IMG/VR virus record: IMGVR_UViG_3300046001_001247 | Location: 1-22,393 of that record | Length of the DNA: 22,393 bases | Reading direction: 5' to 3' (one strand) | DNA from: a virus | In this document: positions 2,479 through 20,013 of the stretch, in pieces | Layout of the letters: each line of letters starts with the position of its first letter | How positions within the stretch are numbered: position 1 is the stretch's first letter | The notes under the pieces: generated by a model | Database searches by the model: none | Told to the model about the DNA's origin: nothing | The model's input: only the letters and a program-made list of their open reading frames with translations | Translations under genes and position numbers: made by a program

Positions 2479-2499
2479 TTAAAATCAAAGGAAATTATC

Positions 2500-2919
2500 A
2501 TGTCGAATCCAGGCCCAGCAGTAACCATTAGCTCGCACCCACAGGTTGCGGGTACTAACCAAGCAATTCGTTTGCTTGCATCGTTTGAAAGCGTAAATGT
2601 CAACGCTCTTGGCGATACCGTTTTGCAAATCATCAACACCACTAGCTACAGCGTTTCTAACGTTATCGTGACTAATGCAAGCATCAGCCTGTCAACGGCT
2701 GAAGCAGGACTGTTTACAGCCCCTGCTGCTGGCGGCACAGCGATTGTTGCAAACGCAGCATTGTCGGCTTGTAGCTCTGCATCGGTTGTGTCACAACGCA
2801 GCGTTGCAAGCACAGCAGCTCAAGCAGGGCAAAAACTCTACTTCAATGTAGCGGTTGCCCAAGGTGCTGCGGCAACTTGTGATGTGTTTGTTTACGGCTA
2901 CGACTTGACGTTTAATTGA
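2500..2919 (+). CDS. Small virion-type protein after coat, candidate head decoration protein
   Basis: This 139-residue protein is rich in Ala, Ser, Thr and Val and has a predicted all-beta character. It lacks a signal peptide, membrane segment or enzyme motif. The start has the same AAAGGAAATTAT(C/T) leader as the coat gene, so strong translation is likely. It is the last gene before the intrinsic terminator at 2937-2970, and therefore belongs to the scaffold-coat transcript. Being made at coat-like levels, small and beta-rich fits a head decoration or head-fibre protein. That role is inference from position and composition, as I recognise no family. Confidence 0.6.
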   Translation: MSNPGPAVTISSHPQVAGTNQAIRLLASFESVNVNALGDTVLQIINTTSYSVSNVIVTNASISLSTAEAGLFTAPAAGGTAIVANAALSACSSASVVSQRSVASTAAQAGQKLYFNVAVAQGAAATCDVFVYGYDLTFN

Positions 2920-2936
2920 TTAGTCAAAGCGTGAAG

Positions 2937-2970
2937 AAAGCCACTCGGTAAAATGGGTGGCTTTTTTTCT
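2937..2970 (+). terminator. Rho-independent terminator
   Basis: AAAGCCACTC at 2937-2946 pairs with GGGTGGCTTT at 2955-2964, with one G-T wobble, around an eight-base loop. It is followed by a run of seven T at 2962-2968. This is a textbook intrinsic terminator closing the head module. No convincing promoter lies between it and the next gene at 2986, so downstream late genes must depend on read-through, antitermination or a promoter I cannot recognise. Confidence 0.85.
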
Positions 2971-2985
2971 TAAAAAAGGATTATC

Positions 2986-3318
2986 ATGGCTTACAACAGT
3001 CCATTTTCACCATTTGGGCCAACAGTTCTAGTTGGAACATCATCGGTGCAAGTTTCGTCATCCAATAACGATCAGCCAACAAGCTATCGGGTAAAAAATA
3101 TGTTGAGTACGACTCAATATTTTTCGTGGAAACCGCCACAACCAAACAATGCAGTCCAAAGCATCACTGTGACTGCACCGACAGCGGGTAATCCGTCGGC
3201 TAATACTATTGGTATGTTGCCGTATTCAGTTGAAATCTTTGGCGGCTTGCCAGGCAACGCATGGTTTGAAGCGGATGCTGTGGGTGCGTTTGAGATAACA
3301 CCAGGGGAAGGGCTATGA
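2986..3318 (+). CDS. Conserved-type small virion protein, function unknown
   Basis: This protein of 110 residues opens with MAYNSPFSPFGPT and ends in FEITPGEGL. It is beta-rich, with no transmembrane segment or signal peptide. The overall pattern (SYRVKN, YFSW, NTIGMLPYSVEIF, AWFEA) resembles small proteins I associate with the tail region of podovirus-like phages, but I cannot assign a function. The ribosome site AAAAAAGGAT lies seven bases before the ATG and only about a dozen bases after the terminator. The stop overlaps the start of the next gene by four bases, so the two are translationally coupled. Confidence 0.6.
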   Translation: MAYNSPFSPFGPTVLVGTSSVQVSSSNNDQPTSYRVKNMLSTTQYFSWKPPQPNNAVQSITVTAPTAGNPSANTIGMLPYSVEIFGGLPGNAWFEADAVGAFEITPGEGL

Positions 3319-3914
3319 GTCTGCGAGCCGTTGCATCATCGTTTCAGTCCGTTAATTATCAAGGCACATGGGACGCTTCAGCCAACACACCTACATTGAC
3401 TTCAAGTGTTGGTACAAAAGGTCATTATTACGTTGTTTCCGTTGCTGGATCAACAAACCTAAACGGCATCACGAATTGGGGTGTCGGTGATTGGGCGGTA
3501 TTTAACGGTTCGGTATGGGAACGTGTCGAAGGTGGTGCTGACGGTAACTTTGTTAACTTGTCCGTCACCGGAACTAGCACATTGACTGATGTAGCTGCTG
3601 CGGATTACACATTGTTACCTGCGGGAATTATCACCGAAGCTACAACGGCTCGCACATTATCTGCTGCTGACAATGGTAGAGTAATTTACTGCACTAGCGG
3701 ATCGGCAACAACAATCACTTGTGCGGCAGGACTAGGTGCAGGATTTAGTTGCACAATCATTCAAGGCGGTGCGGGTAAGGTAACGGTAGCGGCTGGCGGT
3801 CAGACGCTTGTATCGTATTCAAGTCTATTTAGTACAATGGGCCAAAATGCGGTAATTAGTGCTATTTGCCCTGTTGCTAATACTTTCCTACTTGCTGGTA
3901 ATTTAGGGGTTTAA
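3315..3914 (+). CDS. Short tail-fibre-like protein
   Basis: This 199-residue protein starts in an ATGA overlap. Residues 15-72 hold the YQGTWDASANTP ... GHYYVVSVAG ... WGVGDWAVFNGSVWERV pattern, a module that recurs in many phage fibre and collar proteins. The C-terminal half (from about residue 100) is a beta sandwich-like segment with LSAADNGRVIYCTSG and GAGFSCTIIQGGAGKVTVAAGG, also typical of phage fibres. No chaperone or lyase domain is present. It is likely a virion-surface or adaptor fibre that works with the tailspike encoded next. Confidence 0.65.
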   Translation: MSLRAVASSFQSVNYQGTWDASANTPTLTSSVGTKGHYYVVSVAGSTNLNGITNWGVGDWAVFNGSVWERVEGGADGNFVNLSVTGTSTLTDVAAADYTLLPAGIITEATTARTLSAADNGRVIYCTSGSATTITCAAGLGAGFSCTIIQGGAGKVTVAAGGQTLVSYSSLFSTMGQNAVISAICPVANTFLLAGNLGV

Positions 3915-3915
3915 A

Positions 3916-6153
3916 ATGGCGGTCACATTATCCAGTTTGGCAGGTGCGGGCGCACAATTTTTTGACAATAACGGTGTGCCTCTTGCGGGTGGATTGATCT
4001 ATACCTATCTTGCGGGTACAAGTACACCTGCTGCGACTTACACAAGTAGCACGGGTTTAATTGCCCATGCAAACCCAATTGTGCTTGACGCAGCGGGTCG
4101 CATTGCTACTGGTGAGGTATGGTTAACTTCAGGTATAGAATATAAATTTGTTGTTAAAACTTCACTTTTTGTGCAAATTGGGTCATACGATAATATCCCA
4201 AGTATTAATGACTTTACTTCTATTTATGCTGCGCTTGCCAATACAGCAAACCCAGCATTAGGTGATGCTTTAATTGGATTTCGACAATCAAATAGCGCAG
4301 GTAATTTAAGTAATTCTGTAGGGCGCACCGTTCATCAAAAATTGCAAGAGATGATTAGCGTTTTGGATTTTGGAGCAGACAATACTGGCGTAGCAGATAG
4401 TTTGTCAGCTTTTCAAGCCGCAATTAACTCAGGCAAATTGGTTTATGTCCCGCCTGGCGAGTATTACGTTAGCGGGACTATTGAAATCAACACAAGCTAT
4501 TCAGGTCTTGTTGGGCATCAACAAATGCCAAGAATCAGGACAGTCGCGGCGAATGGCCCGATTGTCAAAGTTTCTGCTGTAGGTTCTACGCTAAACGAAT
4601 TTAGCCGCATTGAAAACATTATTTTTTATTGCAACGACAAACCATCATTTAGCACAACACCAAACAGCACTAATTGCGGCGTTGCAGTTGATGGGTCGGG
4701 AGCGTCTGTAGCTGCTGCGGTACAAAGATTTAAAATGTCTAATTGTCGTGTGATTGGGTTTTCATGCGGCATTAACGTTGCAAGCACTGTTAACACTTTG
4801 TTAGAGCGTATTTACATTGAACAGCACACAAATTGGTCTGCTGAAACTGGATATACTTCTGCAAACTTATATGTTGGCGTTAATTTTGATTTGCAACCAT
4901 TTACTGTTGGCGGAATATCTCCCCAAGCGTCTATTGAATGTGTACAAATTGTCGTAAACGGCAACAACGCTCCTAGCGCAGTTACTTCCCAATGTTTCCG
5001 TATGGTTGGACTTGATCCAAGAGATATTTTCTTTGATCGTTGCGAGACGGTAGGCGGTAATTACGGTTGGTACATTCAATCAACGGGAACTGCGTACAAC
5101 ATTGATGTGCATATTCGCAGACCAATTATTGATGCGGTTAAAACAATTGGTATTTATGTTTTAGATTATCTTGGATACGGTGCGCTTACGATTGATGGTG
5201 GATACATTGTCAAATCTAGTGACCTAAGCGGAGCAGCTATTTGGATTGAAAATAGCCAAGGCGTAGTGGTTACTGGCGGTATGCAAATTCTAGGTGTTTC
5301 TTTAAATACCGCAAACGATGACGGTGTTCGCATCCTTAATTCAAAAAACTGCGCTGTTGTCGGGAACGTGTTTGAGAATCTTAATTTTGGTATAAGTTTG
5401 CAGGGTTCTGTTGGGTGTGTGATTTCAAGTAACACAATTGCTGCTTCAGCGGCAGCGTTTGAACCAACACCAACATTGACTTCTGGCATCCGTTTGCTTG
5501 GAACTTGTGCAGAAAATTCAATTGTTGGCAATACTATTTTTGGCGCAAGTGCTACATATAAATACACAAATGGCATTTACACTGAGGTAAATTCAACAGA
5601 CAACATAATAATTGGTAATAGTGTTGATATTACTACAGTAACTACTCAATATAATATTGCGACAACAACCAATTTGGTTGAACGTCAAAGCGGCGGCGTT
5701 ATTTCTGTAAGAGAAGCGCATACTCAGCATTTAATTTCTTACAACGGAACACAAGTTTATCAAGGTAACAGCGTAACTTACCCGCATCAATTTAAAGATG
5801 GGTTAGGCGCAAATTTAGTTGCTCTTGATAACGCAGGTAATTGGGTTATTAATTCAGACATAACATTAAAAGAAAACATTGTCCCATTGTCTTATGGACT
5901 AAATGACGTACTAGCGTTGCTACCAAAGTTTTACAATTTAAAATCAGAGAAAATTATTTCTGACGCAAACAGCGTAGCTTGTCCTGTACGGATTGGATTA
6001 ATTGCTCAAGAAGTAGAACCTATCATTCCTGAGATTGTGACCCTAAACGGTTCTATAAAGGGAATGGATTATTCTTCTCTGATTCCTGTTTTGATAAACG
6101 CAATCCATGAGTTAAATGCAAAGATTGAAAACCAACAAGGTGGTGCAGCATGA
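3916..6153 (+). CDS. Tailspike: head-binding domain, beta-helix, S74 self-cleaving chaperone
   Basis: This 745-residue protein is probably the receptor-binding or polysaccharide-degrading spike. Residues 1-95 (FDNNGVPLAGGLIYTYLAGT ... LDAAGRIATGEVWL) are the particle-binding domain common to podovirus spikes. From residue 148 (SVLDFGADNTGVADSLSAFQ, VYVPPGEYYV) begins a pectate-lyase-3 type right-handed beta-helix running to about residue 590. Residues of about 646-740 match the intramolecular chaperone (peptidase S74): SDITLKENI, GLIAQEVEPIIPEIV, YSSLIPVLINAIHEL. The Ser-Lys pair of this family is S647 and K652, with cleavage expected just before S647. The substrate sugar cannot be read from sequence. 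The gene looks more AT-rich than coat, hinting at exchange. Confidence 0.88.
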   Translation: MAVTLSSLAGAGAQFFDNNGVPLAGGLIYTYLAGTSTPAATYTSSTGLIAHANPIVLDAAGRIATGEVWLTSGIEYKFVVKTSLFVQIGSYDNIPSINDFTSIYAALANTANPALGDALIGFRQSNSAGNLSNSVGRTVHQKLQEMISVLDFGADNTGVADSLSAFQAAINSGKLVYVPPGEYYVSGTIEINTSYSGLVGHQQMPRIRTVAANGPIVKVSAVGSTLNEFSRIENIIFYCNDKPSFSTTPNSTNCGVAVDGSGASVAAAVQRFKMSNCRVIGFSCGINVASTVNTLLERIYIEQHTNWSAETGYTSANLYVGVNFDLQPFTVGGISPQASIECVQIVVNGNNAPSAVTSQCFRMVGLDPRDIFFDRCETVGGNYGWYIQSTGTAYNIDVHIRRPIIDAVKTIGIYVLDYLGYGALTIDGGYIVKSSDLSGAAIWIENSQGVVVTGGMQILGVSLNTANDDGVRILNSKNCAVVGNVFENLNFGISLQGSVGCVISSNTIAASAAAFEPTPTLTSGIRLLGTCAENSIVGNTIFGASATYKYTNGIYTEVNSTDNIIIGNSVDITTVTTQYNIATTTNLVERQSGGVISVREAHTQHLISYNGTQVYQGNSVTYPHQFKDGLGANLVALDNAGNWVINSDITLKENIVPLSYGLNDVLALLPKFYNLKSEKIISDANSVACPVRIGLIAQEVEPIIPEIVTLNGSIKGMDYSSLIPVLINAIHELNAKIENQQGGAA

Positions 6154-11021: not shown

Positions 11022-12544
11022 TGGCTAACCTTATTTTTCCACAAAGTCCATTTCTTGACCCAAATGGAAGGCCAGCCCGTGAGTGGATTCAATGGTTACA
11101 AAACCCTGACGTTAATACAATTACGGCGGTAACTTTTAACGTTGATAACGTTGTTTTAACTTTGCCGCTAGAAGTTATTTATGGTGGTACAGGGTTAACG
11201 GCAATACCTACAAACGGTCAATTATTGATCGGTAATGGTACGGGTTACACACTTAGCACATTAACGGCTGGCACTGGTTTAGCAATTACTAACGCTGCTG
11301 GATCAATCACCCCAAGAATTGCAAACACAGGTGTCACTGCTGGAACTTACGGCTCTGCATCGTCTGTCACAACTTTGACTGTAAACGCTCAAGGTCAATT
11401 GACGGTTGCGGGATCGGTAGCAATTGCTATTGCTGCAAGTCAAATTACAAGCGGCACAATTGCTTCAGCCCGTATTTCAGGATCATATACAGGCATTACA
11501 GGCGTTGGAACGCTGACTGTTGGCACATGGAACGCCACAGCAATCGAAGCAGTTTATGGCGGCACTGGACAAACAAGTTATGTAATTGGCGATTTATTAT
11601 TTGCCAACACTACTACAACATTGTCAAAATTAGCAGATGTTGCGACAGGCAATGCGTTAATTTCAGGCGGTGTTGGCGTTGCGCCTAGCTACGGCAAAAT
11701 AGGATTGACCACTCATGTATCAGGTGTTTTGCCAGAAACTAATGGTGGCACTAATCAATCTACTTACGCTGTAGGCGATATTCTGTATGCGTCTGCTGCG
11801 AACACTTTATCTAAATTAGCAAAGCCAACAGCCAGTTCATATTTAGCAATGACTTCAGCGGGTGTGCCTAGTTGGAAAAATCCTAAATATGGCACGTTTT
11901 ACAATACAACGACTGAAACCGTTGGCATTATCAATACGGCGTATCCACTTAATTTTAATACAACAGATTTAAGCAATGGCGTGACGGTTGCAACGACTGC
12001 TGCGGTGGTAACGGGCAGCATTGCGTTATTTGTATTGACTGTCACAGCGGTCACAAGCGGCACTTTGTCGATTGGTCAAGTAATTAGCGGAACGGGCGTG
12101 ACGGCTGGAACTCGAATTGTTGCGTTTGTATCTGGATCGGGCGGTGCGGGAACTTATACCGTTGATAAATCACAAACTGTTTTAAGCACAACGATTTCAG
12201 CAACTAAGCAATCAAGATTAACGGTAGCGGCTGACGGTGTGTATAACTTTCAGTTTTCTTGCCAACTTGATAAAACAAGTGCGACTGCTAAAAGCCTTTA
12301 TATATGGCCTCGTATTGATAATGTAGATGTGCCCGATTCAGCAACAAAAATTACATTATCTGGCTCAAATGCTGCGACTGTTGCGGCATGGAACTTTGTT
12401 TATAACCTGTCGGCTAATAGTTATTTTGAGTTAATTTGGTCTGCGGAAGATACGGATTGCATTATGCCAGCATCGGCGGCGGCTGCACCAGTTCCTGCAA
12501 TACCAGCAATTATTATGACGGTAACGGACAATATCAGCGTATGA
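11021..12544 (+). CDS. Fibre in the tail-needle slot, with C1q/TNF-like C-terminal domain
   Basis: This 507-residue protein begins directly after gp10, where P22 encodes the tail needle gp26. The N-terminus ([24 protein letters not shown]) is a motif seen at the start of many podovirus fibre proteins. Three repeats of the YGGTG type occur at about 54, 179 and 241, each leading to G(D/Q)LL or GDIL segments; the body is Gly- and Thr-rich. The C-terminal part (about 310-500: [61 protein letters not shown]) resembles a C1q/TNF jelly roll. It is interrupted by a 63-residue module (331-393). It is likely a tail tip or fibre with a receptor-facing knob. No coiled coil is evident. Confidence 0.7.
12011..12199 (+). 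repeat. Inserted beta-rich module, copy 2 (in the needle-slot fibre)
   Basis: Encodes residues 331-393 of the fibre, from TGSI through [31 protein letters not shown] to STTIS. It splits the jelly roll between NGVTV and [12 protein letters not shown]. It is the relative of the module at 7947-8150. Confidence 0.65.
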
Positions 12545-12906
12545 GCGCACTATTTATGATCTACAAATCTGTAGAAAATAGATTGCCATTTGGATTTGAT
12601 AAGTTTAGTGAAGCGGTATCTGATTGGGAAATAATCCCTGTAATACAAAGGGGCAAGTTATTTGGCGGTGTGATGGTCAAAGGCAACGAAATCCATGTTG
12701 GATTTGCTGAAAAACCTACGGCGAGTATTCGGGGCAATATTAAGGCGGTGCTTAAACCATTGTTTGAAAAACATGGTTTTGTGGTTACAGCGGTAAAAAA
12801 AGACAATATTAACGGTTTAAATTTTTGCAAACGGCTTGGATTTGTTGAATCTGGGCAAGATAGCGATAAAATCTTATTGAAGTGTGACGGGAGTCATTAT
12901 GTTTAA
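12541..12906 (+). CDS. GNAT acetyltransferase-like protein beside the ejection genes
   Basis: The start is the ATG at 12541, overlapping the previous TGA in an ATGA, and gives 121 residues. An upstream alternative start would lie inside the fibre gene. The C-terminal part ([17 protein letters not shown]) matches the end motif of GNAT N-acetyltransferases, and the middle ([17 protein letters not shown]) fits the central beta strands. The classic acetyl-CoA-binding Q/RxxGxG/A signature is weak or absent, so activity is uncertain. A GNAT-like protein also occurs next to internal virion proteins in T7-type phages (gp13), so a virion assembly role is likely. The gene ends eight bases inside the following one. 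Confidence 0.6.
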
Positions 12907-18099: not shown

Positions 18100-18321
18100 A
18101 TGGATTCACAAATGTTATTTAATATTGTGATTGGTTTAGCTTCTTTTTTTGGTGGCTGGGTGCTAAACAACATCACTAAATCTATTGATCGTTTGGATGA
18201 TGATGTGCGTAAGTTACCAATGACTTATGTATCTAAAGACGAATATCATCGTGACATTGCTGAGATTAAAACCATGCTTGGCAAGATTTTTGATAAGCTA
18301 GATAACAAGGTTGACAAGTAA
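18100..18321 (+). CDS. Small single-span membrane protein with coiled-coil tail
   Basis: This 73-residue protein starts immediately after the previous stop (TAAATG). Residues 5-24 are a hydrophobic span (LFNIVIGLASFFGGWVLNN). The rest is charged and helical (TKSIDRLDDDVRKLP, YVSKDEYHRDIAEIKTMLGKI, DKLDNKVDK). The N-terminal anchor plus coiled coil is compatible with an inner-membrane spanin or with a lysis accessory, but no matching outer-membrane lipoprotein is visible. Function unknown. Its stop overlaps the next ATG by one base. Confidence 0.65.
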   Translation: MDSQMLFNIVIGLASFFGGWVLNNITKSIDRLDDDVRKLPMTYVSKDEYHRDIAEIKTMLGKIFDKLDNKVDK

Positions 18322-18995
18322 TGGTGGCGGCTAAAAAAATAGTTGCTAAGAAAGCACCGATTAGAAAAGCACCAGTTAAGAGAGTCAATCCTATTCAAAA
18401 GCAGGACATGACGGACAAGATTCTTGACCTTATTAAGTGGGTGGATAACCCGTTTAAACTTGTTTCCGTCATTTTGCTGTCAACGATTGCTTTCACCGGA
18501 TACTTTGCTTGGGACAGCCGTCAGGTTATCTTGGCTGCAATTAAGTCAAACAGCTCGATGCCGCAACTTAAAGAGCACGAACAGTTGCTTCCACTGGCAA
18601 ACGCTTTGGTTAAAGAGATAAACGCTGTCGGGGTTGTTGTTAACAAGGTAAATCTTGCAACAAACTCACGCACAACAGTATTAGCCATTGCTAACGGTGA
18701 GCGCAATCACAAGCTCGAAGGTTTAACAGTCAGCCTGTTTGCCGCCAGCCCTGAGCGCAATGCAGATGTAGTCTCAATGCTAAATAACGAAGTGGCGTGT
18801 AAGCCGTTTGAATCGTCTAGCCCAGTCGGTGAATGGGCAAAGTTGATGGGCGTTACTTATATGTGCAGGGCTTCAATACCTAACGAGATTGGCAAGTTTG
18901 CTGGGTACATTGCTGTAGGCTTTAAGTCTGAACCACGGGATTTAATATCCGTTAAGACCCGAATGATATTAGCCGCATCGGAGATGGACAAATGA
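18321..18995 (+). CDS. Membrane-anchored protein with Lys/Ala/Pro-rich N-terminus, unknown function
   Basis: This 224-residue protein opens with a strongly basic Lys-Ala-Pro tail (residues 1-22). A single hydrophobic span follows at about 47-64 (LVSVILLSTIAFTGYFAW), then a soluble domain to the end. By the positive-inside rule the basic tail is cytoplasmic and the domain periplasmic. The domain has a mixed alpha/beta character (ALVKEINAVGVVVNKVN, TTVLAIANGE, FAGYIAVGFKSEPRD) that looks loosely GAF- or PAS-like. It has exactly two Cys, C160 and C182, which could form a disulfide in the periplasm. It lies between ejection and holin genes. I do not recognise a family. A spanin-like role or a superinfection-related role is possible. 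Confidence 0.6.
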   Translation: MVAAKKIVAKKAPIRKAPVKRVNPIQKQDMTDKILDLIKWVDNPFKLVSVILLSTIAFTGYFAWDSRQVILAAIKSNSSMPQLKEHEQLLPLANALVKEINAVGVVVNKVNLATNSRTTVLAIANGERNHKLEGLTVSLFAASPERNADVVSMLNNEVACKPFESSSPVGEWAKLMGVTYMCRASIPNEIGKFAGYIAVGFKSEPRDLISVKTRMILAASEMDK

Positions 18996-19078
18996 AAGCA
19001 AAATGGGAAACATTTAAGGCTTGGTGTATTGCCAAGTGGACAGCAACTAAAGCATGGTTTTCAGGCGTGAGGTTCTAA
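18992..19078 (+). CDS. 28-residue Trp-rich cationic peptide
   Basis: The ATG at 18992 overlaps the stop of the preceding gene in ATGA, and the TAA at 19076-19078 ends one base before the holin ATG, so the frame fills the gap between the two genes exactly. The peptide has four Trp (5, 11, 16, 22), five Lys, one Arg, one Glu and one Cys, and consists mostly of two 11-residue units: KWETFKAWCIA at 4-14 and KWTATKAWFSG at 15-25. It would form an amphipathic cationic helix. The holin ribosome site (GAGG, 19069-19072) lies inside it. Perfect fit between neighbours supports translation, probably by coupling. A role in lysis timing or membrane action is inference. Confidence 0.55.
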   Translation: MKAKWETFKAWCIAKWTATKAWFSGVRF

Positions 19079-19079
19079 T

Positions 19080-19511
19080 ATGTTACCGATAATGGATATT
19101 CTTGGCATCGGCATGAAGGTGCTAGACAAGTTTTTTCCTGATCCTGAGCAAAAAGCAAAAGCACAGCTAGAACTGATGCAGATGCAGCAAAACGGCGAAC
19201 TTGCCAAGATGCAAGCCGATATGCAAGAGCAAGGCGAGTTAACCAAGCGTCAAGAAAACGACATGAAGTCAGATTCTTGGTTGAGCAAGAACATTCGCCC
19301 GATGACGTTGATTGCGATTCTTGCTGGCTACTTTACGTTCGCTATGATGTCTGCCTTTGATATGGAAACTAACAGGGCGTATGTCGAACTGCTTGGGCAA
19401 TGGGGTATGTTAATTATGTCTTTTTACTTTGGTGGCAGGACGTTGGAAAAGATTATTGACATGAAATCTAAAGAAAAAATTACTGAAGCGGAGATTAAAA
19501 ATGCAAAGTAA
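19080..19511 (+). CDS. Holin, GTA_holin_3TM-like
   Basis: This 143-residue protein sits directly before the endolysin. An N-terminal amphipathic region (MDILGIGMKVLDKFFPDPEQ) leads to a Gln/Met/Glu-rich coiled coil (24-60). The family-typical DSWLSKNIRPMTL follows, then two hydrophobic spans at about 75-93 and 101-118, and a charged tail. This matches the holin family found with gene-transfer agents and many proteobacterial phages, which forms lesions that let the endolysin reach the cell wall. GAGG lies seven bases before the ATG at 19080. An in-frame ATG at 19092 could give a shorter second product, as in dual-start holins, but its own ribosome site is poor. The gene overlaps the endolysin by 11 bases. 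Confidence 0.8.
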   Translation: MLPIMDILGIGMKVLDKFFPDPEQKAKAQLELMQMQQNGELAKMQADMQEQGELTKRQENDMKSDSWLSKNIRPMTLIAILAGYFTFAMMSAFDMETNRAYVELLGQWGMLIMSFYFGGRTLEKIIDMKSKEKITEAEIKNAK

Positions 19512-20013
19512 CTGGGACAACGCTTTTAAAATGATGCTTGCCTCGGAAGGCGGTTATGTTAACCATCCGTCTGATCCAGGCGGCATGACCAATCTCGGCG
19601 TGACCAAGCGGGTCTGGGAAGAATGGGTTGGGCGTGAATCAAACGAAAAAGAAATGCGTTCGCTGACTCCTGAGATGGTTGAACCGCTCTATAAGCGTAA
19701 ATTCTGGGATGCTTGCAAATGCGATGATTTGCCGTCTGGAATTGATTACTTGGTGTTTGATTTCGCTGTCAACGCTGGCTGTGGGCGTAGCGCAAAGATT
19801 CTACAGACTGCCGTTGGTGTAACGCCTGATGGTGGGATAGGGCCAATGACTTTAGCCGCTGTAAAAGCTATCCCTGAAGCCGAGCTGATTGAGAAGTTTA
19901 GCCAAGCCAAAGAGGACTTTTACCGCAGCTTAAACACCTTTGAAACTTTTGGCAAAGGCTGGCTAAACCGTGTCGCTGCGGTAAAAGGTAAAGCAACGTC
20001 TATGCTTACTTAG
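19501..20013 (+). CDS. Endolysin, glycoside hydrolase family 108 with PG-binding domain
   Basis: This 170-residue enzyme cleaves the glycan strands of peptidoglycan. Residues 7-92 form the GH108 domain, with the signature SEGGYVNHPSDPGGMTNLGVT; the catalytic Glu is E16. FDFAVNAGCGRSAKILQTAVG leads into the C-terminal peptidoglycan-binding domain (about 95-165), which contains GVTPDGGIGPMTL. Length is normal for the family. There is no signal peptide or membrane anchor, so release depends on the holin encoded just upstream. GGAG lies seven bases before the ATG. The last bases overlap a small gene on the opposite strand. Confidence 0.92.
   Translation: MQSNWDNAFKMMLASEGGYVNHPSDPGGMTNLGVTKRVWEEWVGRESNEKEMRSLTPEMVEPLYKRKFWDACKCDDLPSGIDYLVFDFAVNAGCGRSAKILQTAVGVTPDGGIGPMTLAAVKAIPEAELIEKFSQAKEDFYRSLNTFETFGKGWLNRVAAVKGKATSMLT

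Follow-up and report, generated by a model that had tools for sequence, protein, structure and literature searches.

On the evidence of its sequence and those of its relatives, the 28-residue reading frame considered here, which had gone unnoticed between two lysis genes in a freshwater phage, is a genuine protein-coding micro-gene and belongs to an unannotated family of Trp-rich peptides of 20–31 residues. Lysis timing sets phage fitness, and annotation passes over genes of fewer than 30 codons; this family indicates that a peptide so small can be under selection within a lysis cassette. The whole stretch of DNA that was analysed (22,393 nucleotides, IMG/VR record IMGVR_UViG_3300046001_001247) is referred to below as the window, and its relevant features are:

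18100..18321, + strand: 73-aa protein with one N-terminal membrane segment (phrog_462)
18321..18995, + strand: 224-aa membrane protein (phrog_31287) with predicted T4-holin-T-like architecture and fold
18980..18983, + strand: GGAG, SD-like, 8 nt 5' of the peptide ATG (seen in the sequence and conserved in relatives)
18992..19078, + strand: gene of the 28-aa Trp-rich micropeptide, MKAKWETFKAWCIAKWTATKAWFSGVRF (from translation, intact homologs and codon models)
19001..19033, + strand: first 11-residue unit, KWETFKAWCIA (from translation and a shuffle test)
19034..19066, + strand: second 11-residue unit, KWTATKAWFSG, which is missing from the 20- and 23-aa forms
19069..19072, + strand: GAGG, SD-like sequence of the holin, lying within the last peptide codons (VRF; seen in the sequence)
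19080..19511, + strand: holin of the GTA_holin_3TM family (PF11351, E 2.7e-11)
19501..20013, + strand: endolysin, glycosyl hydrolase 108 with a peptidoglycan-binding domain

The micro-gene and its family

The initial annotation, made from the letters of the window, had proposed a hidden coding frame filling the gap before the holin, and its geometry is correct in every respect: the start overlaps the stop codon of the 224-aa gene (18993–18995) as ATGA, while the TAA stop at 19076–19078 is followed by one free base and then by the holin ATG at 19080. The Trp residues do fall at positions 5, 11, 16 and 22, and the reading of the peptide as two tandem 11-residue units is upheld, in that the repeat scores above shuffles for the window peptide (p = 0.0008) and for relatives (p = 0.0002–0.02). 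RNA structure across the ORF junction is not unusual (z = 0.99), and a frameshift fusion of the peptide with the 224-aa protein was rejected, as no slippery heptamer could be seen by eye at the ATGA. Elsewhere in the window, a 156-aa ORF at 12436–12906, within the structural region, looks by eye like an acetyltransferase (GNAT-like).

Family members were collected from IMG/VR, using the holin and neighbouring genes as queries together with degenerate DNA patterns, and nearly all of them come from uncultivated contigs. This yielded 56 intact DNAs, distinct by DNA sequence rather than by lineage, that encode 45 distinct peptides; a 57th entry (L007) proved to be a false regex match and was dropped, as were pattern matches inside long unrelated ORFs (L091, L366 and L368). 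The peptides occur in five lengths, of 20, 23, 27, 28 and 31 aa (for instance MNWIKEKWAQLVEWFKGLKL, MIDYLKSEWQAFTAWLWRMVAKF, MTYLKAKWEAFKAWCWRMVAWFKNVRF and MNWIKAKWEALKAWCHAKWTAIKIRFSGVRF for the 20-, 23-, 27- and 31-aa forms respectively), and their core is K-x-(K/E)-W-x5-W, in which the two Trp are kept almost without exception. The 20- and 28-aa forms are bridged by the 31-mer, which begins like the former and carries the second unit of the latter, and one further member (MTYLKAKWAQFVAWFKGLRL, from L292) looks like a cross between the 27-aa form and the 20-aa form. All 56 DNAs start with ATGA, and most relatives, including the stand-alone TAATAAGGAGTGCAAATGA (L192), have an SD-like sequence 5' of the start.

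Existing resources have little to say about these peptides. The window peptide has no match in Pfam and only chance-level matches in PHROG (E 0.11–0.12, four relatives giving none), tblastn against the phage collection returned either nothing or chance matches in tape-measure and similar proteins, and a search of the open literature found nothing on such a family. A scan of genome contigs gave six relatives of the holin, three of them in betaproteobacterial MAGs. One deposited record among the loci examined, Limnohabitans phage DC33 (L325, PQ492659.1), carries an Inoviridae label that looks wrong for a record of 39 kb that includes an endopeptidase gene for lysis.

Comparison of synonymous with non-synonymous change, which had been suggested as a check, gives a consistent picture of purifying selection. 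Values of pN/pS are 0.37 among the 28-mers, 0.18 among the 20-mers and 0.06 for the shared unit of 27- versus 28-mers, as against 0.49–1.95 in the two shifted frames. Maximum-likelihood estimates of omega are 0.384 for the 28-mers, about 0.11 for the 20-mers and about 0.17 for all forms together, and omega = 1 is rejected in each case (2dlnL 12.9, 44.9 and 48.2 respectively). The Trp core is conserved although the 27- and 28-mer versions are synonymously saturated. Broken frames in related phages, which would have spoken against coding, were also sought: wherever the contig runs on beyond a close relative of the 224-aa gene the ORF is undamaged, with the exception of L159, which has no gap there at all, a result that rests on a gene-by-gene listing, since the regex used to collect peptides itself demands an intact frame. 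Taken together, purifying selection and intact relatives imply that the peptide is coding and that its sequence matters.

As to the character of the peptide, the description of it as strongly cationic holds for the window sequence (net charge +5) but not for the family, in which charge runs from 0 to +6, the 23-mers carrying almost none and the peptides of GTA-type cassettes +2 to +6. This range speaks against antimicrobial action by positive charge alone. The suggested helix is matched by AlphaFold2, which predicts a single helix over residues 2–28 of the 31-aa form, so that the traits of the family appear to be richness in Trp and (predicted) helicity. A classic amphipathic helix is harder to sustain: the hydrophobic moment at 100 degrees is not above shuffles in the 28-mer (p = 0.29) and is clearly so only in the 23-mers (p = 0.004–0.01). 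Neither a signal sequence nor a transmembrane segment is present in the peptide, and no true family member reaches the transmembrane hydropathy value. Trp-anchored helices of this kind tend toward the membrane interface.

The lysis cassette and its modularity

In the contigs searched, the peptide was always found directly 5' of a holin candidate and never outside that slot; in six contigs of 32–38 kb it is present as a single copy, only there. The holin candidates that follow it are of three unrelated kinds, namely GTA_holin_3TM proteins, a 65-aa protein with two TM segments (MDRWK type) and a 73-aa membrane protein (MNIF type, L351), the last two being putative holins judged by topology and position. 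The gene on the 5' side varies, and may be the 224-aa protein, a 73- or 84-aa phrog_462 protein or, in L149, a 116-aa membrane protein (3684–4034) of no recognised family, which there separates the 224-aa gene from the peptide.

Presence or absence of the ORF is exact, with both flanks retained. The near-identical cassettes of L198 (GACAAATGA, peptide, TTTTAATGG) and L210 (GACAAGTAATGG) differ in that exactly the peptide ORF is missing from the latter, and compared with the window L159 lacks the peptide ORF, the holin ATG there taking over the ATGA. The existence of near-identical cassettes without exactly this ORF makes it an optional module, and such pairs are ready-made natural controls. 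The spanin genes, the T-like gene and the arrangement of the endolysin each vary independently of the peptide. Behind the ORF, relatives show either a 1-nt spacing or a 4-nt overlap, while peptide-free cassettes are coupled directly by TAATG or ATGA; as translational overlap is retained with and without the peptide, coupling does not need it.

Several other features of these cassettes may be recorded here. They seem to combine a T-like gene, a GTA or MDRWK gene and a gene for a 70-aa "VADR" protein with two TM segments, all of them holin-like. Other small Trp/aromatic-rich micropeptides, in these cases transmembrane, are found in distant cassettes in the same or a similar slot, either just 3' of the 224-aa homolog (L176–L183, e.g. 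MDNERLFWIILGIAAWLLIGYFMGAFI) or before the holin (L043, L068). At L167–L173, L175, L184–L188 and L190–L191 the 224-aa homolog is followed by a secreted-looking protein of 94–96 aa (MRWLLLPLLL...), overlapped at several loci by an ORF in another frame, which may represent a lysis or spanin gene not yet recognised as such. In the deposited record MW202520.1 (L324), an MDRWK-type holin candidate and an Rz/Rz1 pair are present at 2483–3108 but unannotated.

The 224-aa neighbour is probably itself a T-like holin, judging from its predicted fold and from the site of a homolog. Its AF2 model (pLDDT 75) has the T4-type holin T architecture, with an N-terminal cytoplasmic helix (30–41), a TM and bridge helix (44–76) and a globular domain whose top structural matches are 6px4_B and 6psk_T (T4 holin T, periplasmic domain; Z 13.9, rmsd 3.1–3.2), with GAF domains close behind (Z about 13); an hmmsearch of the 224-aa alignment against PDB sequences did not recover T. 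In Edwardsiella phage GF-2 the homolog stands alone between Q and lysozyme, where a holin would be expected and where no other gene is annotated.

Possible roles of the peptide

The reading preferred here, tentatively and with a chance of being correct that we would put just short of even, is that of a peptide at the membrane interface that is produced along with the holin and tunes its action. Translation of the peptide would begin by re-initiation at the stop of the upstream gene, and its last codons and stop would hand ribosomes on to the holin start; ATGA re-initiation and the presence of the holin SD within those codons suggest that peptide and holin are co-produced. The peptide would then associate with the cytoplasmic membrane on its inner face, as a Trp-anchored interfacial helix, and there modulate the holin step, by delaying hole formation or by promoting it. 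Its constant placement before the holin suggests that opening of the host membrane is probably the step it acts on, and the early suggestion that it influences holin timing, or is a tiny lysis factor, fits that slot, with membrane or partner as the conjectural target. Since many cassettes manage without it, any effect must be conditional or mild. Weak amphipathicity in the 28-mers is a counterpoint to the interfacial helix.

Whether such a peptide would touch the holin directly is a separate matter. Its position makes holin binding, or an antiholin role, a candidate, and regulation by a helix on the cytoplasmic side has a precedent in T4, whose holin switches to hole formation through an amphipathic helix of its own in the cytoplasm, to which the cytoplasmic antiholin RIII binds (PMC12162936). 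However, three unrelated holin partners would be unusual for a specific antiholin, and because unrelated holins are accompanied, an effect at the membrane interface is likelier than a tight lock-and-key contact; the peptide would thus be an add-on working with several unrelated holins. The stronger version of this proposal, a plug-in micro-regulator of lysis that is exchanged between lysis cassettes as a precise single-ORF module and tunes structurally unrelated holins at the membrane interface without any specific binding, is possible but doubtful.

Clearly less likely is a disruptin-like function, in which a cationic, Trp-rich peptide destroys the outer membrane after holin and endolysin have acted and so replaces the spanins. 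The PhiKT disruptin is a short amphipathic antimicrobial helix, and whether spanin-less phages carry disruptin-like peptides is stated as an open question (both from PMC12819732). The window and the GTA-type cassettes do look the part: no spanin is detectable in the lysis cassette of the window, an i-spanin homolog was found in 0 of 136 GTA-holin cassettes, a lipobox scan of the window and six peptide-bearing relatives of 32–38 kb gave no convincing lipoprotein, and the GTA-type peptides are all cationic. The family as a whole does not. All 12 of the scored peptide-positive MDRWK cassettes have an i-spanin, as does the peptide-positive MNIF cassette L351; MDRWK-type examples contain an embedded proline-rich Rz1-like lipoprotein (L112, L144, L198, L201, L206), embedded Rz1-like lipoproteins being present in the cassettes inspected, although the match of the i-spanin to PHROG Rz-like profiles is weak (E 0.004). 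Conversely, L030 and L159 are spanin-less with the same genes and have no peptide, and the 23-mers are nearly uncharged. Because presence of the peptide does not track absence of spanins, this reading fits the family poorly; it is possible for the cationic forms, and is not the simplest account of the whole. The family gives a direct way of testing whether tiny interfacial helices regulate holins generally, and whether spanin-less phages use such peptides.

Of comparably low probability is a peptide that is active on membranes or in host takeover and resides in the late operon with no bearing on holin function, for instance one that depolarises the cell, blocks superinfection or acts on some host target. 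Its optional, modular, moron-like gain and loss as an exact ORF, its Trp-rich composition and the unrelated holins alongside would all suit this. Against it, every copy in the contigs searched stands immediately before a holin candidate, and expression from the late operon would suit lysis better than takeover. It is very unlikely that the peptide is a co-holin or mini-pore subunit, inserting and helping to form the hole in the manner of the switching N-terminal helix of the T4 holin, here supplied in trans; the predicted helix and the T4 model of a cytoplasmic amphipathic helix that turns transmembrane (PMC12162936) would accommodate it, but the hydrophobic moment of the 28-mers is unremarkable and the argument is one of analogy throughout. 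Finally, the notion that the ORF simply couples translation, passing ribosomes on from the preceding gene to the start of the holin with a functionless product, draws on the ATGA, the close 3' junction and the internal holin SD, but is barely credible given omega well below 1, a Trp core conserved at synonymous saturation and peptide-free cassettes that are coupled by direct overlaps.

Comparison with known systems

The PhiKT disruptin (Holt et al. 2022, as described in PMC12819732) resembles the present family in being a short, cationic, helical peptide of a phage without recognisable spanins. The Trp-rich peptides differ in that they also occur beside Rz/Rz1, are in some cases near-neutral, and lie directly before the holin. 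TisB-like type I toxin peptides (29 aa) are of similar length and are small peptides with membrane activity, which the present family may share. TisB-type peptides insert across the membrane, however, whereas the Trp-rich family falls below the transmembrane hydropathy value, and no toxin–antitoxin context was seen around it. T4 RIII is larger, at about 82 aa, and differs in that some cassettes with the Trp-rich peptide yielded no T-like gene. The likeness to RIII (cited in PMC12162936) is one of place and proposed role: the peptide, too, would be a cytoplasmic partner at the holin step, and in the window it is a T4-T-like protein that is encoded directly 5' of the peptide.
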